Assembly: GCA_024695505.1 (NCBI GenBank)
Contig: JAILIB010000139.1
Coordinates: 1 to 39,716 of the forward strand
Origin: Saccharofermentans sp.
Lineage (GTDB): Bacteria; Bacillota; Clostridia; Saccharofermentanales; Saccharofermentanaceae
Reading direction: 5' to 3'
Length of the DNA stretch: 39,716 nucleotides
Under the pieces are notes generated by a model that worked only from the letters and a program-made list of their open reading frames with translations, was not told where the DNA came from and did no database searches. The position numbers were made by a program, and so were the translations under genes. This document shows, one piece after another, positions 10,537-27,901 of this stretch (position 1 is the stretch's first letter; each line of letters opens with the position of its first letter).

Positions 10537-11880
10537 TCACTTAAAAATATGTGTCTCGCGGGAATCTTTATACATTCCCCAGCCTGGTTCGCCATTGCGG
10601 GCGAATTCTCCCCACGCCTTGCGGAGTGTAATACCGAGAGCCTCGGCATCGGGTTCCAATGCTTTGTTTTCAGGAGATCTGGCTTCTCTGTTCGGCTCGG
10701 TCTTTGAACCGAAGAGAACAGGCACTTCATCCGCGTGACGGCACCGCTTGGCGTACTGATATTCATATATCCAGATGTTCCCCTTGTATGAGGAAGCTAT
10801 ATCCATCACGGGCTTTTTATAGACTTTGTAAGTAAGATCGTCAGACAGGCGCTTTCTCAGGTCCTTGCCCCATTTTGTCTTGAGCTTGAAAAGCCTTGGA
10901 GCATATGGAAGAAGCAGCGTGGGGAATTTGTCCGTGAAAAGATTTGCCTCATGCAGACAGGTTCCGATAAGCATCGGCTTGTCGGAAGCGAATACGGTCT
11001 TTACGGGGTAGTCTTTGACGGTTCTGCCATCCAAGACCGGCGAGAAGACGCAGGTGACCTCGCCTCCGGCACGGACGCGGATCTTGATCTTTCTGTTTGC
11101 CCTGTAGACCTTTACGGGATCCGCCGAGAGTATCTTTTCCGGTGTCTTACTGCTGATGCCGAGCATTCTCAGATACATCTTCGTGATCTTTTCGCTCTGC
11201 TCCGGTGTCCAGAACGAATCTACACATGCGGACTGGACAATGGATTTTGCGAAGAGCGGCGTTGCCTCAGGCATAGACATGAGGGCCAGTATGCAGGCGG
11301 CTCCTGATGACTGACCGAAAAGCGTTACGTTTGCCGGATCTCCGCCGAAAGCAGATATGTTTTTGTTGATGAACTCCAACGCCTTGATCTGGTCAAAAAG
11401 GCCGCAGTTCAGATCGAATCTGTCACTTAAGTAATTCAGGTTCAGGAAGCCGTAGATGTTTAGCCTGTAATTGAAATCAACGAGGATCGCGCCGGTCTCT
11501 TTTGCGAAACGGGTGAGATCATAGACCATTTCATCCGTGTTTTCGTTTATCCGTCCCGTTCCTCCGGTGGCATAGGAACCGCCGTGGATCCAGACGAGGA
11601 CGGGAAGGCCTTCACCCTGTCCTTCAGGAACACAGATGTTCATATAAAGGCAGTCCTGACCCGTATAACTTATGTAGTGACGTGAACTGTAACCCTGGAT
11701 GGAATTGCGGCCGCCCTTGTCCGCATTGAGTATCCCGTCCCAGGGTTCCGGATCCTCCGGATGACGGAAAGCCAGATCAGATACAGGGGCTTTGGCATAT
11801 GGGATCCCGAGGTATTCACGGCATCCGTTTTTTGTGATGCCGGAAACTTTGCCGCAGGATGTCTCGATTATCTGTTCCAT
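10537..11880 (-). CDS. Type B carboxylesterase family protein
   Basis: Nucleophile elbow VTLFGQSSGAACIL; oxyanion region VLVWIHGGSYATGG; N-terminal GKVSGITKNGCREYLGIPYAKAP. Confidence 0.92.
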   Translation of the reverse strand: MEQIIETSCGKVSGITKNGCREYLGIPYAKAPVSDLAFRHPEDPEPWDGILNADKGGRNSIQGYSSRHYISYTGQDCLYMNICVPEGQGEGLPVLVWIHGGSYATGGTGRINENTDEMVYDLTRFAKETGAILVDFNYRLNIYGFLNLNYLSDRFDLNCGLFDQIKALEFINKNISAFGGDPANVTLFGQSSGAACILALMSMPEATPLFAKSIVQSACVDSFWTPEQSEKITKMYLRMLGISSKTPEKILSADPVKVYRANRKIKIRVRAGGEVTCVFSPVLDGRTVKDYPVKTVFASDKPMLIGTCLHEANLFTDKFPTLLLPYAPRLFKLKTKWGKDLRKRLSDDLTYKVYKKPVMDIASSYKGNIWIYEYQYAKRCRHADEVPVLFGSKTEPNREARSPENKALEPDAEALGITLRKAWGEFARNGEPGWGMYKDSRETHIFK

Positions 11881-11994
11881 AAGATCTAAATCTGCTGTCT
11901 GCTGTCGGGATAATACGTTTATTGTTAATTATATAGCAAGAAATGTCATATTATAAGCATTTTTACAAAAGAATATGATATATGACGCGTTACA

Positions 11995-12040
11995 ATTTGT
12001 TCATAATATATTTATATTTGTTCACACCACTAATTATAAT
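11995..12040 (+). promoter_or_regulatory. Candidate regulatory region upstream of the exosortase operon: direct repeat ATTTGTTCA x2 (21 bp period) and TATAAT -10
   Basis: atttgttca at 11995-12003 and 12016-12024; tataat at 12035-12040. Confidence 0.4.
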
Positions 12041-12086
12041 ATAACGGGGTTGATCTTTCGTTAAATGCTCTAGAGGAAAGATTATT

Positions 12087-13781
12087 ATGAATCGATTTGC
12101 AAAAAAGCTGACTGCGACGGCAGCAGCACTGGCGATCTTATTGGCGGTACCTGCTGCGGCGGCACCGTCGTTTGTTGTTTATGCAGACGAAGAAGTCCAG
12201 GAGACCGAAGCTCCGAAAACCACAAAAGTTGCTGAAACGACAAAACCCAAGGAAACCGTTAAAGAAACAAAGTCGGCTTCAAAGCCTGATGAAACGGTTA
12301 AGGAGACCGAACCTTCCAAACCCGCAGAGACTGTAAAAGAGACTGAACCCTCAAAGCCGGCTGAGACAACTAAGCCGACTGAGCCCTCAGATACTTCCAG
12401 GAAGGGAGAACCGGAAGAGACGACAGCTCCTTCAGAGCCTTCCGGAACGAAGGAATCCACAGAGCCCGAAGAGACCAAAGAACCTTCCGAAACAACTTCC
12501 GGAGAGACGGAACCTTCAAGATCTTCTGAACCTTCCGAGACAACTGAGCCTGAAGTTACTGAAACGATAGCACCGAGCCGCGCGGCTAAAAAGGCGGCCA
12601 GAGGCCAGTACCAGGGCATAACGATCGACGGTAATTTCTCCGATTGGGACAGTGTAGTCAAATATGATTTCTCCGGCCGCCCGAACAGCCATGTCAATTA
12701 TGGCGCCCTTGTTTGGGACGGAGACTATATCTACATTTACCTCGAAGAACAAAGAGCTCACTCTTCCACCTGGTCCGGCCCCAACAACAACGGTAATTTC
12801 GTCATCAAGCTCAAGAACGGTATCGACGTTGTTGTAAGCATTACCGACAAAGGGCAGCAGAACGGAAACAAAGTAAGTGTTTCCAATACAAAAACTGGAA
12901 CGGTATTGACCACCGAAAACGGCGGCATCCAGATCGCGTATGATAAGGATTATTACACCGAGGGACGTCCTTCTCTGATGGAGATCGCCATACCGGCATC
13001 CATTCTTCCCGAAAATACACAGAGCATATCGTTCGGTTATTATCTTGATGATCCCGTCATAAAGAATGTTGCAAATCCTCATCCGACCGGCGGTCAGGGC
13101 GGCGAAGGTGAAGAAAATGACGGAAGCAAGATAAAGATCGACGGATACTATAGCGACTGGCTTAATTTCCCGCACCAGACCATCGAATATGATACCCAGG
13201 GTGCTCATCATAATTTTGCCGATGCTCATGGAGCTATCTACCAGAAGAGCGCCAAGACGGTATATGTTCATGCAAAGACCAATGACTTCATGGAAGGCCC
13301 TCCGGATTACTATGGCGGCAACCAGTTCCTTGAGATCACGGTAACTCTGGCAGGCAGGGAGACCAAGATGGTCGCATGTCTTGTCGATGAAAACGGAAAC
13401 ATCAATTGGAATTCGTCCGAGAATGACAAGCATTATGCTAAAGGCAAATACAAGTTTGCTTTGTTTGAGCAGTCCGGCTGGCATCAGACAACGAACATGA
13501 ACAACATCCATCCGAATGATACTTTCTACGGATATCAGTATCTTGAAGTCGGCGACAGGGTTGACGAAACGGAATTCAGCATAGATACAAAAGCGCTGGC
13601 TAAGCATCTCGGACTGAATCTGACTCAGGCCGCCGAGCTCAAGGTATTATTCCACCGTGTCGGCCGTGAACCGCTTATCGCTTCAGGCATCTCGACAGGC
13701 CCGGTATTTACGCTCGTTCTTACTACGGTAGCGGCAGGTTCGTATTACGTTTTCACGCGTAGGAAGAGAAGGCAGGCTTGA
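12087..13781 (+). CDS. Secreted surface protein: signal peptide, long E/T/P/S linker, two IDGxxSDW domains, Firmicu-CTERM-like sorting signal
   Basis: Signal peptide ATAAALAILLAVPAAAAPS; ETVKETEPSKPA repeats; ITIDGNFSDWDSV and IKIDGYYSDWLNF; C-terminus STGPVFTLVLTTVAAGSYYVFTRRKRRQA (TM plus basic tail). Confidence 0.85.
   Translation: MNRFAKKLTATAAALAILLAVPAAAAPSFVVYADEEVQETEAPKTTKVAETTKPKETVKETKSASKPDETVKETEPSKPAETVKETEPSKPAETTKPTEPSDTSRKGEPEETTAPSEPSGTKESTEPEETKEPSETTSGETEPSRSSEPSETTEPEVTETIAPSRAAKKAARGQYQGITIDGNFSDWDSVVKYDFSGRPNSHVNYGALVWDGDYIYIYLEEQRAHSSTWSGPNNNGNFVIKLKNGIDVVVSITDKGQQNGNKVSVSNTKTGTVLTTENGGIQIAYDKDYYTEGRPSLMEIAIPASILPENTQSISFGYYLDDPVIKNVANPHPTGGQGGEGEENDGSKIKIDGYYSDWLNFPHQTIEYDTQGAHHNFADAHGAIYQKSAKTVYVHAKTNDFMEGPPDYYGGNQFLEITVTLAGRETKMVACLVDENGNINWNSSENDKHYAKGKYKFALFEQSGWHQTTNMNNIHPNDTFYGYQYLEVGDRVDETEFSIDTKALAKHLGLNLTQAAELKVLFHRVGREPLIASGISTGPVFTLVLTTVAAGSYYVFTRRKRRQA
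12252..12386 (+). repeat. In-frame tandem repeat encoding ETVKETEPSKPA-like units in the linker
   Basis: ETVKETKSASKPD/ETVKETEPSKPA/ETVKETEPSKPA/ETTKPTEPSD read directly in the translation. Confidence 0.8.
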
Positions 13782-14407
13782 AGATAGTTATTGCCATTCT
13801 GGCTGTTTTACTGTGGATAGGTCTGCTTGAAATCCTGCGCAGGGCGGGTCTCAAGTTTTGGCGCTATCTCGCCGGAAGCTGCGGGCTTTTTCTTATCTTG
13901 ATGATCCTGGTCCGTCCCTTTGTAACCGTCCCGCTTGCGCGTGTCGTAACGGCTCTTGCAGGGATCATGGGTAAGGTGACCGGGATCTTTCAGGCGTATT
14001 TCAGATATGGCGTCATTTTCATAGATTCAGCGTCAGGAGCCATCACCGTCAACATCGATCTTGAGTGTTCCGGAGTGATCGAAATATCAGCCTTTATTTC
14101 TCTCCTGTTTCTTTTTTCCGTTTATAACATCCCCGAACGCATTTATGTCGGAGTCATCGGAACGCTTTACACGATACTTACGAATGCTCTGAGGATCACG
14201 ATCATCTGCGTGTTCATCCATTTCTGCGGAACGGATTTCTATTATGTTGCCCATACGTTTATCGGAAGGATCATATTCTATGTCCTTCAGGTCATCTTAT
14301 ATTTCTATGTTTTCACCAGACCCCAGATAAAGAGAACGAAGACCGGAGGTTTCTCATATAATGCCGCCGGTACTGCGAAAGCAGTCGAGGAGGAAGAAAA
14401 GGCATGA
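13778..14407 (+). CDS. xrtG: Exosortase family protein, XrtG type
   Basis: 209 aa multi-TM protein; triad C97 (DLECSGVIEISAF), R139 (TNALRITIICVF), H159 (YYVAHTFIGRIIFY). TTG start overlapping the upstream stop (TTGA). Adjacent to a CTERM-bearing protein and XrtG-associated genes. Confidence 0.85.
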   Translation: MKIVIAILAVLLWIGLLEILRRAGLKFWRYLAGSCGLFLILMILVRPFVTVPLARVVTALAGIMGKVTGIFQAYFRYGVIFIDSASGAITVNIDLECSGVIEISAFISLLFLFSVYNIPERIYVGVIGTLYTILTNALRITIICVFIHFCGTDFYYVAHTFIGRIIFYVLQVILYFYVFTRPQIKRTKTGGFSYNAAGTAKAVEEEEKA

Positions 14408-15786
14408 ATGAGATCATGACCAATTTAATAAATCCTTTCTTCTACTGGGTCGCATGGATCATTATCCCGATACTGGTCGAGGTTGTTCCTTCGATCGCAT
14501 CGTTCTTCTCATTGCTGATCAACAGGAATAAGCATAAGAATGCTGAAGATCCTCTCATATGGCCGGACATCGTGCTCGTTGTTCCGGTCTATAACTCCGA
14601 AAAGAGTATTGAAGAGTGCCTGAGATCGATCCACGAGAGTGATTATCCGAATGACCGCATGGAGATCTACATGGTCAACAACATGAGTTCCGACAAGAGC
14701 TTTGATGCCTTTATGCGTGCGCAGCAGAAATACAGTGAGCTCAGAATGTCATGGCTCAATTCCGGACAGGGAAAATCCCGCGCGCTCAATCTTGCCATAT
14801 ATAACAGCAAAGGCAAGTACATGATCAACATCGACTCGGATGGAACGCTTGAAAAGACTGCCCTTACCAGGATGATCAGGCACATGGAGAATGAACCTGA
14901 TGTCTCATGCCTTACGGGTTCGATCCTTACGAGACCCGATGAGATAGAGAAGATAAAGACCTTCAAGGGAAGGCTCTTAAGACGCCTTGAGTTCTGCGAA
15001 TATGCCCAGGCTTTCCTCGCAGGCAGAAATTATGCTTCGGAAAAGGGAAGGATGTACACCCTTTCAGGAGCTTTCTCCGCGTTCAGGCTCGATACGATCA
15101 GAAAATCCCATATGTATAATACGGAGACCATTTCCGAAGATACCGAGATCACGTTCCAGATGCGCTATCTTCAGAAACAGAAGGTCGGAATCTGTGTGGA
15201 TGCACTGTATTTTACCGATCCGATCGAAGACGTGAACAAGCTCTATACCCAGCGCCAGAGGTGGCAGAGGGGTTCGCTCGAAGTTGCACGTCTGTATCCG
15301 CAGAGCCAGCTCAAGCCCTGGAGATTCGTTAAGGACGTTAATGTCAGGACGCTGCTCTTTGACCATACCTTTGCGTTCCCGAGAATGATCTGGTATCTGG
15401 CGTTGATCTATCTGATGACAAACGGATACTCAAGTCTGGTGGTAGTAACTGCACTTGGCGCGATATTCCTTTTCTATATCCTCTGCGGCTACCTGTATTT
15501 CCACATAGCATCTTATCTGCTTAAGCCATTCCCTGATATAAGGGCATATTACCGCAAACAGCGTGTTCCAGTTGCGCTTCTGCCGCTGTATAACTTCGTT
15601 GTGTTCTTTATCAGATTCGCAGGCATCATCAACAGCATGAATACCAGAAGTTCATGGAAGACGGACACCCTGACTAGGGAAATGGACAAGTTCATGACGA
15701 CGCTCAGATCCTGTTTCAGGACATTCGCGAACGGTTTAAAGAGATTCAGACAAAGTATAAATTACGAGGACCGGTACAATGAATAA
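14404..15786 (+). CDS. Membrane glycosyltransferase family 2, exosortase G-associated, processive-type motifs
   Basis: VVPVYNSEKSIEECLRSI; INIDSDGTLEK (DxD-like); TISEDTEITFQMRY (ED); YTQRQRWQRGSLE (QxxRW); C-terminal TMs. ATGA overlap with xrtG. Confidence 0.9.
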   Translation: MNEIMTNLINPFFYWVAWIIIPILVEVVPSIASFFSLLINRNKHKNAEDPLIWPDIVLVVPVYNSEKSIEECLRSIHESDYPNDRMEIYMVNNMSSDKSFDAFMRAQQKYSELRMSWLNSGQGKSRALNLAIYNSKGKYMINIDSDGTLEKTALTRMIRHMENEPDVSCLTGSILTRPDEIEKIKTFKGRLLRRLEFCEYAQAFLAGRNYASEKGRMYTLSGAFSAFRLDTIRKSHMYNTETISEDTEITFQMRYLQKQKVGICVDALYFTDPIEDVNKLYTQRQRWQRGSLEVARLYPQSQLKPWRFVKDVNVRTLLFDHTFAFPRMIWYLALIYLMTNGYSSLVVVTALGAIFLFYILCGYLYFHIASYLLKPFPDIRAYYRKQRVPVALLPLYNFVVFFIRFAGIINSMNTRSSWKTDTLTREMDKFMTTLRSCFRTFANGLKRFRQSINYEDRYNE

Positions 15787-16870
15787 TTCAAGGACGAAAT
15801 ATGTTGTGGCAGTTACCATCGGCGTGCTGTTCATAGCATTCCTGATGTCGGCTTTTGCATGGTGGGAGATCTTCAACTATGAACAGGGTGTCGCAGAACT
15901 GTATGCCCAGGAGCAGGACGGTTATGTTGAGATCGTAGCCAGACAGATCGAACGCTACGGTGATGTTGCCGGCGACAAGTTCGTTGAAGACACGATCGAG
16001 ATGCTCGACTCGACTTCACAGAGATACTGGACTCTTGATAACACCCAGTACTTCCTGTTCGTTAAGAGCATTAATGATACGAATATTTACAAGACATTCT
16101 CCACCGATACCTTTTACAACACGCAGAGCGCACAGAGCTTTCTTCAGACGCTCGTAAAGGGACAGGTTAAACATTCGATAATCAGACTCGAGGGTTTTAA
16201 ATACGTCGCTTCAGGAATCATCTTTGAGTATGCAGGCACCGAGTACCGTCTCTGCCTGCTGACCGACTACGATGTCATGCTTACGAACAACGCATATCTG
16301 AGCAGCAAGCTATATCTGCTTATAGACATCATCCTCATGATCGCTCTCATTGTTATTTCATGCATCTTCTTCGCTATCCGCTTATCGGGGGAGAGGAAAA
16401 AACTTCACGACATAATAGAAGTCAACACCCAGCTAAACAGATATATCGATTTCCTCGACAATGCCGTAATGGGAAGAAACTCAACGGCCATCATCACGGG
16501 TGAAGGCAAGATAATGCATCTTATTCACAGGATGGAAGAAAGAAAGATCTATCCGTGCACGTTTGTTGACGTAAAACTCGAAACAGATAAGATGATCCCT
16601 TTCTACGAGACTTACAAGGACAAGTTCAAAAAAGGCATCGTATGGATCAGATACAGCAGGGACAATTTCATTTTGGTATTCGGAAAACTTAAGAAGGATG
16701 ATGCACTCAACTTTTTTGACAATACGGTCACGGAGTGGAAGCGCGGTCTCGGAGATTCCGGTATAGAGGTCAGGGCCCTGGAAGCCGGTGCTGCAACCGG
16801 AGTAATGACTGTTTACAGGACTCTGGTCGTAGGCGGTTCACAGGACTTGATGAATAAGGAGGAAGAGTAA
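15779..16870 (+). CDS. Membrane sensor-like protein with extracytoplasmic domain and degenerate GGDEF-like C-terminal domain
   Basis: TM at about residues 9-29 and 178-200; C-terminal WIRYSRDNFILVFGKLKKDDALNFFDNTVTEWKR resembles the R-[GGDEF]-x4 region with SRDNF in place of GGDEF. Overlaps the upstream gene by 8 bp. Confidence 0.7.
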   Translation: MNNSRTKYVVAVTIGVLFIAFLMSAFAWWEIFNYEQGVAELYAQEQDGYVEIVARQIERYGDVAGDKFVEDTIEMLDSTSQRYWTLDNTQYFLFVKSINDTNIYKTFSTDTFYNTQSAQSFLQTLVKGQVKHSIIRLEGFKYVASGIIFEYAGTEYRLCLLTDYDVMLTNNAYLSSKLYLLIDIILMIALIVISCIFFAIRLSGERKKLHDIIEVNTQLNRYIDFLDNAVMGRNSTAIITGEGKIMHLIHRMEERKIYPCTFVDVKLETDKMIPFYETYKDKFKKGIVWIRYSRDNFILVFGKLKKDDALNFFDNTVTEWKRGLGDSGIEVRALEAGAATGVMTVYRTLVVGGSQDLMNKEEE

Positions 16871-17317
16871 ATGCTCAGATATTACAGGATCAAAGCTTAT
16901 CTCAATGCTAACCATTTTGTCGTTTTTGACGGCAAGAAGGGTAAAACACATCCCCACACATGGGAGTTCGTTGCCACCGTTTATACAAAGAATGACAGCA
17001 TCGTAAAGTTTACGGATACCGAGAAGGCAATAATGAAGGTTTTCGAGCCGTATCAGGACCGCGTATTGAATGAGATCGAGCCGTTTATGGCGATTATCCC
17101 TTCGCTGGAAAACATCACCGAACACTTTGCAAGCAATATTTCCGAAGCAGTAAGGCCGTTTGACTACCACCTCAGGAGATTCGAGGGAAGCGAGACTCCG
17201 GTAAGAACATATGGTGTCAGATTCCCTGAAGTCGGTGACGGTTCCGAAGATGAAGACAGTGACAGTGTCGAGGCCGCTATTGCGCGTCTGGAGGAGGGCA
17301 GTGGATACAAGGGCTGA
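16871..17317 (+). CDS. 6-pyruvoyl-tetrahydropterin synthase-related protein
   Basis: LNANHFVVFDGKKGKTHPHTWEFVATV (AxH and HPH putative Zn ligands); VLNEIEPFMAIIPSLENITEHFASNI matches the PTPS LN...PTxEN region. Confidence 0.8.
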   Translation: MLRYYRIKAYLNANHFVVFDGKKGKTHPHTWEFVATVYTKNDSIVKFTDTEKAIMKVFEPYQDRVLNEIEPFMAIIPSLENITEHFASNISEAVRPFDYHLRRFEGSETPVRTYGVRFPEVGDGSEDEDSDSVEAAIARLEEGSGYKG

Positions 17318-19820
17318 CAGAATAAAGCGCGCAGTTGTCTTTTGCGTTTCGATCCTGATCAATCTGGCGATCGCCGTTCTGGTCGTCTGGGTCATCAAGC
17401 GGAATGTCCTTCTGTTCAAGGGTTCTGACTCCATGTACCATGTGTACAGGGGCAGCTGGATCTTTAATGAGGCGAACTCAGGCAATCTGTGGCCGCTCTA
17501 CAATCCTGTCTGGTACAACGGCGTTGAGCTTATGCGTTACTGGACGCCGGCTGCCGCATATCTGATGGCGTTCAGCCATTGGATAGCTACTTTCATCCCT
17601 CAGTTTGCCGATACGGGATATGCCTTCGGAGGATTTGCAGTTTATTGCGGATTTATCTACTTCATCGGCGCCGTATCGTGGGCTGTCGTAGGACTCAGGA
17701 AGAAAAGAGCCTTGTTTGGCGTGTTCCTTGGAATAATGTGGTTCTTCATGCCTGCCAGTATCCATGTCCTGATCGGAGAGGGAAACCTTCCGCGAAGCCT
17801 TATAATGTCTGTTTTCCCGCTCTTGTTCATGTTCGTTAACGAGTATCTTAAAAAGGGAGAGAAAAAGGATTTTATCGGCACAGCGGTCATGTTCTGTTTT
17901 ATGTGCTGCTGCCATGTCGGCTATACCGGAATGGTTGCGATAGCGTGCCTGATCTATCTTGTCATTTACAGATTGTGCTGCTTTGTGGGTTCGACCAGGC
18001 TCGAAAAGGGAAGACACAAGGATCTCGATCTGATCATAGCCATCATTTCAGGATTCCTTTTGAGCGGCATATTCCTTTATCCTGCCATCAACGGCGGCCT
18101 GATGTCCAATTCCGGCCATACCGATCAGACTGCCAGGAATTTCTTCCAGAGTCTGCTTTCCACGCTTAATCCCGTTGAAAAGATCAGGATCGGACATGAG
18201 CACAATTACTTCGGCCTTGCGTCTTTCCTGCTCGCCGTCTTCGGATTGTTCGGGGCCAAGCGCAGGGCAAGACCGGGTTTCATAACAGCGGTCATTATCG
18301 TTCTTCTCACTTCCAATACGGCGTCACCGATAATCAGATCGCTTCCCGGCGGACAGCTGATGTGGATGCTCAGATTCCTTCAGATCGCTGCCGGAATGAT
18401 CCTTTTCTCCATGCTCGAATGGGACAGCCTCAAGAAGCCCCTTCTTGTCGGGGTTTCCCTGGTGCTGGTCCTTGACTGTTTTACCCTTTGTACCGTTATG
18501 TCCAAGACCGACGGCATCGAAAGGATGGAGGACTATTTCACGCAGCTCGAAGACACCACGTTGATCGATGAGGCTAAGGAATCAACTCATAACCGCATCG
18601 CGCTTATGGACAGCGGAAGAGCCCTGGTTAACGGTGTATATTATCTGACCGATTATAACGGCAGTGTTCCGCAGTTTTTCGGACAAGGATGGGAGGCGGC
18701 TTCCGCATCAAGACAGATCGCCCAGATCAATGAAGCTTACGAATACGGGTATTATTACTTTATGTTCGACAGACTGCTAGAAATGGGTAACGATACAGTC
18801 CTGATCAAGAAGGATGCGCCGGTAAAGACTCCTTATAACGAGGATGAGGCAGATACCGCTGCCGCTGCCGTCGGCTATGAGAAGATCAAAGATGAGGGCT
18901 TGTATGCGGTGTTCTCGCTTAAAGGGATCGACGGTAAATACGGTACCATCAGCAAATACAAGGGATTGGCGATCGGAGACGGAGCATATTACATCACCAT
19001 GATGTTCCCGTCTATCGAGGAGGCACCGAACAAATATATTGACGACTATACGGTAGAGGAACTGTCGAAGTACCACATAATCTATCTGGACGGCTTCAAA
19101 TACCATAACGTTGATAAGGCTGAGGACATAATCAGGCAGGTCTCGAAGAACGGCAGCAAGGTCTATATCCTGGCTGACGGCATTCCTTCAAATTCCAAGA
19201 GCCACACAAACAGATTCCTCGGAGTCGAATGCCAGTCGATCGAGTTTGACAACGGTTACCCGACTCTTAACACCAAGAAGCTTGGAACATTCGAAGTCGC
19301 GCTCTTTCCGGATGAATACAGGCAGTGGAAAACTGTTTACATGAACGGACTTACCGAGATCGAAGGATGGTCCGAGGTCCTTGGCGAAACGCTCCCGTTT
19401 TACGGAAAAGGCGAGAATGAGAACATCACTTTCGTCGGATACAACCTTACGTACTATTTCTCCATTACCAAGGACAGAAACATAGGTGCACTTCTTTCGG
19501 GCATCGTGCAGACGTCAACAACCGAACTCCCGGAAAGAAAGACGGTTCCGATAGACATATCCTACACTCCGGGCAAAATTTCCGTATCTTCTCCCGAAGA
19601 CAATGTCAACACGAATCTTACGGTCCATGACATCTTTAGCGGAAACTATACCGAGCGTAACCGTCTTATCTACGTTAACAAGGGGACTACTGAGATCAGT
19701 ATGCACTATCCGTATCCGGTTCAGAGCATATTGATGTCTGTACTGGGCATTGCCGTAATTGCCGTAACCTCGGTCTTCATCAAGCCGCGCGGCAGAAAGA
19801 AGGAAGACCCCGTAAGGTAA
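17301..19820 (+). CDS. Large polytopic membrane protein, 6-pyruvoyl-tetrahydropterin synthase-related membrane domain family (GT-C-like)
   Basis: GTG at 17301 after gaggaggg gives VDTRADRIKRAVVFCVSILINLAIAVLVVWVIKRN; loop FKGSDSMYHVYRGSWIFNEANSGNLWPLYNPVWYNG after TM1; many TMs then a soluble region. The ORF start at 17211 overlaps the upstream CDS and is less likely. Confidence 0.82.
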   Translation: MDTRADRIKRAVVFCVSILINLAIAVLVVWVIKRNVLLFKGSDSMYHVYRGSWIFNEANSGNLWPLYNPVWYNGVELMRYWTPAAAYLMAFSHWIATFIPQFADTGYAFGGFAVYCGFIYFIGAVSWAVVGLRKKRALFGVFLGIMWFFMPASIHVLIGEGNLPRSLIMSVFPLLFMFVNEYLKKGEKKDFIGTAVMFCFMCCCHVGYTGMVAIACLIYLVIYRLCCFVGSTRLEKGRHKDLDLIIAIISGFLLSGIFLYPAINGGLMSNSGHTDQTARNFFQSLLSTLNPVEKIRIGHEHNYFGLASFLLAVFGLFGAKRRARPGFITAVIIVLLTSNTASPIIRSLPGGQLMWMLRFLQIAAGMILFSMLEWDSLKKPLLVGVSLVLVLDCFTLCTVMSKTDGIERMEDYFTQLEDTTLIDEAKESTHNRIALMDSGRALVNGVYYLTDYNGSVPQFFGQGWEAASASRQIAQINEAYEYGYYYFMFDRLLEMGNDTVLIKKDAPVKTPYNEDEADTAAAAVGYEKIKDEGLYAVFSLKGIDGKYGTISKYKGLAIGDGAYYITMMFPSIEEAPNKYIDDYTVEELSKYHIIYLDGFKYHNVDKAEDIIRQVSKNGSKVYILADGIPSNSKSHTNRFLGVECQSIEFDNGYPTLNTKKLGTFEVALFPDEYRQWKTVYMNGLTEIEGWSEVLGETLPFYGKGENENITFVGYNLTYYFSITKDRNIGALLSGIVQTSTTELPERKTVPIDISYTPGKISVSSPEDNVNTNLTVHDIFSGNYTERNRLIYVNKGTTEISMHYPYPVQSILMSVLGIAVIAVTSVFIKPRGRKKEDPVR

Positions 19821-19877
19821 CATGCCTATTGGGAACGCTGTATAGAGGCATTTATTGTCTGAAATGTCCGTATATTT

Positions 19878-26962: not shown

Positions 26963-27901
26963 ATGATAGACTTCAGCGACGCCGCCAATAGAGCCAAGAT
27001 CGACAAGATCGTCGTGGATACGATCCGGAAATATTCCACGGATACGGTCTACTTCAAGGACAAGGATTCCAAGTTCATATGGAACAGCTTAGGTCACATC
27101 CAGCAGCTTGGCGTAAGAAGCCAGGAAGAGGCGCTCGGAAAGACTGATTTTGATTTCTTCCCCAAGGACTTCGCACAGTCTGCCAGAGAGACGGAAATCA
27201 CGATAATGCAGACCGGCTATCCGCTCATAAACATGGTCGAGGAACTTATCCTTGATGATGAAAATGTCAGGTACTATCTGTGCTCAAAGTATCCCCTTTA
27301 TGATGACGATGGAAAGATCATCGGCACATGGGGATCGAGCAAGGACGTCACCGAACAGAAGATGCTCGAGAAAGAACTCCAGCGTTCTTACAGCAAGATG
27401 GAGATGCTCTCCAGAGTTGATGACCTGAGCGGACTCTACAACCGCAGATACTTATACGAGGAACTTGATAAGTACGCCGGCTTGTATGATGAGCGTCAGG
27501 ACAATACGACGTTCTCGATCATCGTTCTCGATCTTGACGATATGCAGAACTTCAATGACCAGTACGGTCAGCAGAACGGCGACCTTCTTCTCAGATACAT
27601 TGCCGACATCCTTTTGACCAATACAAGGAAGGCCGATACATGTTTCAGGACGGGCGGAGATGAGTTCGCAGTCGTACTCCCCGATACCGACAAACTCGCT
27701 GCCGTGGGAGTTGCAAAAAAGATCGTCCAGCAGATCTCGGGAAATCCGTACGTTACCGACAATAAGAGGGTAAGCATTTCCGCTTCAGCAGGTGTCGCAG
27801 CATTCAACAAGGCTGACCCCGACATTTCAAACTTCCTCTCAAGAGCTGAGAGAAAGCTTAATAAATCGAAGCGCGAAGGCAAGAATCAGGTTTCTTTCTG
27901 A
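26963..27901 (+). CDS. Diguanylate cyclase: PAS plus GGDEF domain
   Basis: PAS-like TVYFKDKDSKFIWNS...; intact FRTGGDEFAVVLPDTD. Confidence 0.92.
   Translation: MIDFSDAANRAKIDKIVVDTIRKYSTDTVYFKDKDSKFIWNSLGHIQQLGVRSQEEALGKTDFDFFPKDFAQSARETEITIMQTGYPLINMVEELILDDENVRYYLCSKYPLYDDDGKIIGTWGSSKDVTEQKMLEKELQRSYSKMEMLSRVDDLSGLYNRRYLYEELDKYAGLYDERQDNTTFSIIVLDLDDMQNFNDQYGQQNGDLLLRYIADILLTNTRKADTCFRTGGDEFAVVLPDTDKLAAVGVAKKIVQQISGNPYVTDNKRVSISASAGVAAFNKADPDISNFLSRAERKLNKSKREGKNQVSF

Follow-up and report, generated by a model that had tools for sequence, protein, structure and literature searches.

An XrtG/Firmicu-CTERM cassette of Saccharofermentans and its possible role in producing a cyclic di-GMP-linked surface glycan

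Six genes of an XrtG cassette

We analysed a window of 39,716 nucleotides from Saccharofermentans sp. (contig JAILIB010000139.1, positions 1 to 39,716 of the forward strand), a rumen-type gut bacterium of the Saccharofermentans group. Between positions 12087 and 19820 lie six overlapping or abutting plus-strand open reading frames (ORFs), which belong to the XrtG/Firmicu-CTERM system. The neighbourhood of the exosortase XrtG was reportedly defined computationally by Haft and colleagues in 2012, with models for XrtG, its associated glycosyltransferase, a PTPS-related protein and Firmicu-CTERM, and what is known of this kind of cassette so far comes almost entirely from computational annotation. 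Our literature search found no direct functional study of XrtG loci. The initial annotation of this DNA had likewise stated that no experimental function was known, which still holds apart from one correlation, the over-expression of the XrtG system in self-aggregating, interferon-inducing L. plantarum strains (PMC12854382). The features of the locus are listed here.

11868-19846, no strand: cassette as a presence/absence unit, from DNA comparison with a sister species (genome G043, locus L117)
12011-12040, plus strand: candidate sigma-70-type promoter TTTATA-18-TATAAT before gene 1, with 10/12 matches in a consensus scan; the number of such sites in the region does not clearly exceed that in shuffles
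12087-13781, plus strand: gene 1, secreted Firmicu-CTERM target (TIGR04145)
13680-13769, plus strand: sorting signal of gene 1, comprising ASGISTGP, a transmembrane helix and a basic tail (from sequence)
13778-14407, plus strand: gene 2, exosortase XrtG (TIGR03110)
14404-15786, plus strand: gene 3, XrtG-associated membrane glycosyltransferase of family 2 (GT2; TIGR03111)
15779-16870, plus strand: gene 4, sensor with two transmembrane helices and a probable degenerate GGDEF-like cytoplasmic domain (transmembrane prediction, PF00990 in relatives, profile-profile comparison)
16871-17317, plus strand: gene 5, PTPS-like protein (TIGR03112)
17290-17303, plus strand: Shine-Dalgarno sequence GGAGGAGG and GTG start of gene 6 (pattern scan against shuffles)
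17301-19820, plus strand: gene 6, PF10131 membrane protein with predicted GT-C fold (PF10131, AlphaFold2)

All coordinates and junctions of the initial annotation agreed with our ORF check. Genes 1 and 2 meet in TTGA at 13778 and genes 2 and 3 in ATGA at 14404, genes 3 and 4 overlap by 8 bp at 15779, genes 4 and 5 abut at 16870/16871, and genes 5 and 6 overlap by 17 bp, provided that gene 6 begins at GTG 17301. A longer ORF beginning with ATG at 17211 is the less likely choice; the Shine-Dalgarno sequence GGAGGAGG is perfect and lies 3 bases 5' of GTG 17301, and the pattern occurs once in the window and in 0/100 shuffles. The overlaps, together with synteny, suggest that the six genes form one operon.

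Families were assigned with NCBIfam and Pfam models at curated cut-offs, which five of the six proteins passed: gene 1 (TIGR04145, 106 bits against 50), gene 2 (TIGR03110, 182.8 against 102.75), gene 3 (TIGR03111, 567 against 364), gene 5 (TIGR03112, 113 against 69, with a further match to PF01242) and gene 6 (PF10131, 404 against 26). The initial annotation had recognised an XrtG/Firmicu-CTERM locus and proposed searching with the XrtG, glycosyltransferase, PTPS-related and Firmicu-CTERM models; all four gave significant matches, those for the exosortase and the glycosyltransferase included. We scanned genome contigs with gene 3, which yielded 80 related loci, or 81 with that of the window.

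Gene 1 is the only Firmicu-CTERM protein of the genome, as the initial annotation had anticipated in calling it a dedicated target encoded first in the cassette, and it lies beside XrtG. It comprises a signal peptide, a linker rich in Ser, Thr, Pro and Glu (residues ~36-165, with 43 Ser/Thr), two beta-rich domains and a C-terminus of ASGISTGP, a transmembrane helix and RRKRR. A pattern search placed a motif related to ASGISTGP close to the C-terminus in 67/75 related targets, whereas a comparable linker was seen in only 14/75. The predicted structure is all-beta (AlphaFold2, pLDDT 88). That the beta domains bind carbohydrate is our guess: in fold searches the starch-binding protein Sas6 ranked best, with a low TM-score, and a single member of the family matched CBM9, weakly (E 0.05). 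The IDGxFxDW motif had raised the suspicion of a CBM9/DOMON identity, which was not confirmed by Pfam, Protein Data Bank (PDB) profile or fold searches, and matches to Fab folds reflect generic beta sandwiches. In XrtG, the conserved exosortase residues Cys97, Arg139 and His159 are invariant in 80/80 sequences.

Gene 3, which adjoins XrtG, carries the motifs D140xD142, ED241-242 and QRQRW 279-283, all invariant in 80/80 sequences. Its nearest model is PgaC, and cellulose synthases account for the PDB matches that extend from its nucleotide-binding part as far as QRQRW; by these features it looks like a membrane-embedded processive synthase. In eight relatives the GT2 bears a long C-terminal extension (L027, L029, L032, L036, L037, L053, L055 and L057). 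The extension of L027 matches PF00884, its nearest relatives being the OpgB/MdoB phosphoglycerol transferases, which decorate glucans, so that the GT2 and an OpgB/LtaS-like phosphoglycerol transferase domain form one protein of ~990 residues; the other seven extensions resemble that of L027 by sequence.

For gene 6, sequence searches against the PDB returned only noise and the fold was needed for an assignment. When its predicted structure (AlphaFold2, pLDDT 88.8) was compared with the PDB, each of the 19 highest-ranking fold matches was either a GT-C-type enzyme or an entry that includes oligosaccharyltransferase (AftD, STT3, DPY19, PglB), and by this predicted fold gene 6 is a GT-C glycosyltransferase. 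Residue 43, in the first outer loop, is Asp in 28/36 and Glu in 3/36 sequences, the acidic residue expected of GT-C enzymes. The loci of relatives hold additional genes for GtrA flippases, GtrB/PgfS-like GT2s and YfhO, and the genome of the window encodes three GtrA proteins elsewhere. Multi-component transmembrane glycosylation systems of the CsbB/GtcA/YfhO kind have been described (PMC8035078). The XrtG loci resemble these in having a GT-C enzyme that would act outside and, among relatives, GtrA, GtrB-like and YfhO partners, but those systems have no sorting protease and the PTPS-related family is not named as GT-C in that paper. At one locus (L062, 16210-17334) a UDP-GlcNAc 2-epimerase gene adjoins gene 6, and related epimerase genes lie near 5 loci on either strand, a weak hint of N-acetylmannosamine in the glycan.

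Gene 5 retains the zinc-binding residues of PTPS (His15, His27 and His29, kept in 90/90 copies) and the pterin-anchoring Glu108, kept in all 75 main copies. The catalytic Cys, Asp and His of PTPS/QueD are not kept: the Cys is absent from all 90 copies, residues 20-26 showing no conserved Cys, and other residues stand in place of the Asp-His pair. Fourteen relatives have the PTPS domain as an N-terminal fusion to gene 6, and in two (L049 and L072) it replaces the C-terminal domain of gene 4. The sequences thus point to a non-catalytic binding or adaptor role.

Recurrence, gain and loss

The 80 related loci come mainly from rumen and gut Clostridia, those of Saccharofermentans being closest, and XrtG loci are widespread in gut Firmicutes, with 142 confirmed matches to one pattern set. 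The commonest order among the 81 loci is 1-2-3-4-5-6 (33 complete and 6 near contig ends); 5-1-2-3-4-5-6, 6-1-2-3-4-5 and 6-1-2-3-5 also occur. Genes 1 and 2 are spaced by at most 60 bp in 71/76 loci and genes 2 and 3 in 79/80. Flanking genes were compared across loci, and none are common outside the genus. Of 115 genomes of the order, 18 have XrtG, and Firmicu-CTERM is present in precisely these 18, each with one target gene adjoining XrtG; in one of these 18 assemblies (G044) XrtG is split over two contigs. The genome of the window has a single copy each of XrtG and the PF10131 protein, and a single Firmicu-CTERM protein, in which that domain is present twice. Because the order recurs in dozens of related loci and XrtG and Firmicu-CTERM share the same 18 genomes, the locus is not a chance assembly.

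In the sister species G043 (L117), which lacks XrtG, the upstream esterase gene adjoins the downstream trmL gene with no XrtG locus between them. DNA similarity to the window ends at ~11868 and restarts at ~19846, an empty site which indicates that the whole block, promoter region included, was gained or lost as a unit. Beside trmL in this cassette-free genome lies a GT2 distantly like gene 3 (5297-6097 of L117, 27% identity). The Na/Pi transporter downstream (19919) was rejected as a cassette member because gene 6 adjoins trmL without the transporter in some XrtG-bearing relatives and the transporter is present in several XrtG-free genomes.

The order target-XrtG-GT2 is also that annotated in Eubacterium eligens and on the Lactococcus plasmid pBV60. 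Compared with the known XrtG/Firmicu-CTERM system, the window has a PF10131 GT-C where Lactococcus has TIGR03766, and gene 4, which the Lactococcus locus lacks; its target also differs, in that its domains are in tandem and its linker is long. On Lactococcus lactis plasmid pBV60 (L118) the XrtG locus is complete and is accompanied by a cyclase gene and an EAL gene. The plasmid is conjugative, and beside the locus lie bacteriocin genes and a transposase of the IS6 type; the system is thus able to pass from one strain to another.

Gene 4 and links to cyclic di-GMP

The gene 4 protein of the window has two transmembrane helices flanking an extracytoplasmic domain and matched no NCBIfam or Pfam family. 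Of its 32 relatives, seven match PF00990 (GGDEF; best 9e-22), and a profile-profile comparison of window-type C-termini with these PF00990-matching domains gave a probability of 91% (E 1e-6), to which a coiled region may contribute part. At the GG(D/E)EF position the window has YSRDNF and relatives have NDDEF, SDNKF or SNDIF. The initial label of gene 4, sensor-like, stands as to the sensor, and the comparisons add a probable degenerate GGDEF-like domain. An active diguanylate cyclase or a classical I-site receptor was rejected since neither the GG(D/E)EF motif nor the I-site Arg is retained. Gene 4 is a likely regulator.

Other XrtG loci are connected to cyclic di-GMP (c-di-GMP) by different means. 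At the gene 4 position Desulfosporosinus (L078) has a sensor with a degenerate GGDEF and an HD-GYP domain, the latter with intact HD and HHExxDGxGYP-type motifs. On pBV60, target-XrtG-GT2-PTPS-TIGR03766 directly follows two genes, one for an intact PAS-GGDEF cyclase and one for an EAL protein. The Clostridium ljungdahlii locus (L075) has a c-di-GMP-II riboswitch (2735-2818; 54.9 bits, gathering threshold 53.5) ahead of a same-strand run of a chemoreceptor, a GtrB-like GT2, a PTPS-GT-C fusion, target, XrtG, GT2, gene 4 and gene 5, a run that probably forms one transcript. These are independent links, and counting gene 4 itself, the links of XrtG cassettes to c-di-GMP take four forms. A second c-di-GMP-II riboswitch of L075 (18021-18104) heads a receiver/CheC-like/GGDEF run downstream of the XrtG genes, and none of 21 other loci scanned has a riboswitch before the XrtG genes. 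The genome of the window encodes 33 GGDEF domains, so c-di-GMP signalling is present; one of the 33 lies ~7.6 kb downstream of the cassette (27416-27889, plus strand, 122 bits).

The operons ydaJKLMN of B. subtilis and pss of Listeria are c-di-GMP-controlled exopolysaccharide loci that combine a membrane GT2 synthase with a degenerate GGDEF membrane protein. Genes 3 and 4 offer an analogous pair, but the I-site is not kept in gene 4, and neither operon is known to include an exosortase, a CTERM protein, a PTPS domain or a GT-C. The gts operon of L. acidophilus, in which a PgaC/BcsA-like GT2 is co-transcribed with a c-di-GMP receptor, is linked to exopolysaccharide, and raised DgcA leads to more exopolysaccharide and co-aggregation (PMC6123363). 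Its receptor, unlike gene 4, is a degenerate EAL protein, and an exosortase is not mentioned in that paper.

A surface glycan and its alternatives

We consider it probable, by a modest measure, that this is a complete XrtG cassette which makes a cell-surface glycan together with a dedicated surface protein that accompanies it, with production tied to c-di-GMP. The reading draws on what was observed or computed here: the family identities and scores, the invariant XrtG triad and GT2 catalytic motifs, the co-occurrence in 18/115 genomes, the empty site that marks a unit of gain and loss, the predicted GT-C fold and the domain fusions of relatives, those of the PTPS domain among them. It draws as well on the companions found in relatives, which are parts of glycan or transmembrane-glycosylation systems (GtrA, GtrB/PgfS-like GT2, YfhO, the OpgB-like fusion), on the four forms of c-di-GMP link, and on the raised expression of the XrtG system in L. 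plantarum strains that self-aggregate (PMC12854382).

In this scheme gene 3, as a membrane-embedded GT2 synthase, would make the glycan from nucleotide sugar and extrude it, and gene 6, working on the outer face, would take sugars from a polyprenyl-phosphate carrier and attach them, most likely, to the gene 3 glycan. After export of gene 1, XrtG would cleave it at STGP by way of an acyl-enzyme on Cys97 and pass it to an acceptor, which would be the glycan or a membrane lipid; the beta domains of gene 1 would then stand on the surface with the glycan. Gene 4 would sense an outside signal and control the synthase through its degenerate GGDEF-like domain, gene 5 would act on genes 6 and 4 as a catalytically dead, ligand-binding PTPS domain, and production would be coupled to c-di-GMP by means that differ between lineages. 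Our confidence in the mechanism is moderate. Several observations weigh against it: the fold and family searches for a carbohydrate-binding role of gene 1 were weak, gene 4 is missing in place from some relatives, no Rfam riboswitch was found in the window, and the YfhO of relatives resembles PgfM1/PgfM2 of a streptococcal protein-glycosylation system. Furthermore, the gene 4 relatives have no I-site RxxD at its place five residues ahead of the motif (the Asp is partly kept, the Arg lost), and the gene 4 of the window on its own gives no GGDEF match, which together make c-di-GMP binding by gene 4 itself doubtful.

That YfhO resemblance would suit an alternative in which the cassette is a dedicated protein glycosylation system, genes 3 and 6 glycosylating gene 1, for example on the Ser/Thr-rich linker, and XrtG coupling C-terminal processing to the modification. 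Each genome encodes one target beside the enzymes, gene 6 has the fold of protein-modifying oligosaccharyl and mannosyl transferases, the extra GT2 of relatives is like PgfS, and the 43 Ser/Thr of the linker would offer sites. However, most targets lack such a linker even though the enzymes are conserved, for which reason we rejected linker O-glycosylation as a universal role, and the processive-synthase motifs of gene 3 and its OpgB-like fusion partner, which act on glycans, are better suited to a surface glycan polymer. We regard protein glycosylation as rather unlikely, and the initial proposal, a cassette that processes, anchors and/or glycosylates one substrate, stands for the dedicated target, while glycosylation of gene 1 is not established.

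Less likely still, the glycan might itself be the anchor, XrtG transferring gene 1 onto an amine of a glycan or glycolipid that genes 3 and 6 produce, as archaeosortase is proposed to do onto archaetidylethanolamine. The acyl-enzyme of archaeosortase A is proposed to be resolved by lipid ethanolamine (PMC7157517), XrtG conserves the Cys/Arg/His residues, and relatives have a phosphotransferase domain joined to gene 3; that domain, however, resembles phosphoglycerol (OpgB) rather than phosphoethanolamine transferases and thus does not demonstrate an amine donor. We give very little credence to gene 5 being a working pterin or queuosine-type enzyme in a locus that makes or uses a modified pterin. 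Its zinc His triad, pterin-anchoring Glu and matches to TIGR03112 and PF01242 would fit, but the catalytic Cys is missing from all 90 copies, the Asp-His pair is lost, and the domain is fused both to a membrane glycosyltransferase and to a sensor. A tentative idea, on balance doubtful, is that the PTPS-like domain is instead a catalytically dead sensor that uses its zinc/pterin pocket to bind a small ligand, perhaps a guanine-derived messenger, and switches the GT-C and the membrane sensor.

The analysis makes a system so far known from annotation testable, through the fold of PF10131, a non-catalytic PTPS role with two fusion partners, the likely regulator gene 4 and the c-di-GMP links; Clostridium ljungdahlii, Eubacterium eligens and Lactococcus lactis with pBV60 carry XrtG loci and are candidate test organisms. 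Of most interest are the non-catalytic PTPS module, the GT-C assignment, the fusion of gene 3 to an OpgB-like domain and the repeated links to c-di-GMP. If the PTPS-like domain does act as a ligand sensor, it would be a regulator of a new type, one that governs how Firmicutes synthesise surface glycans.

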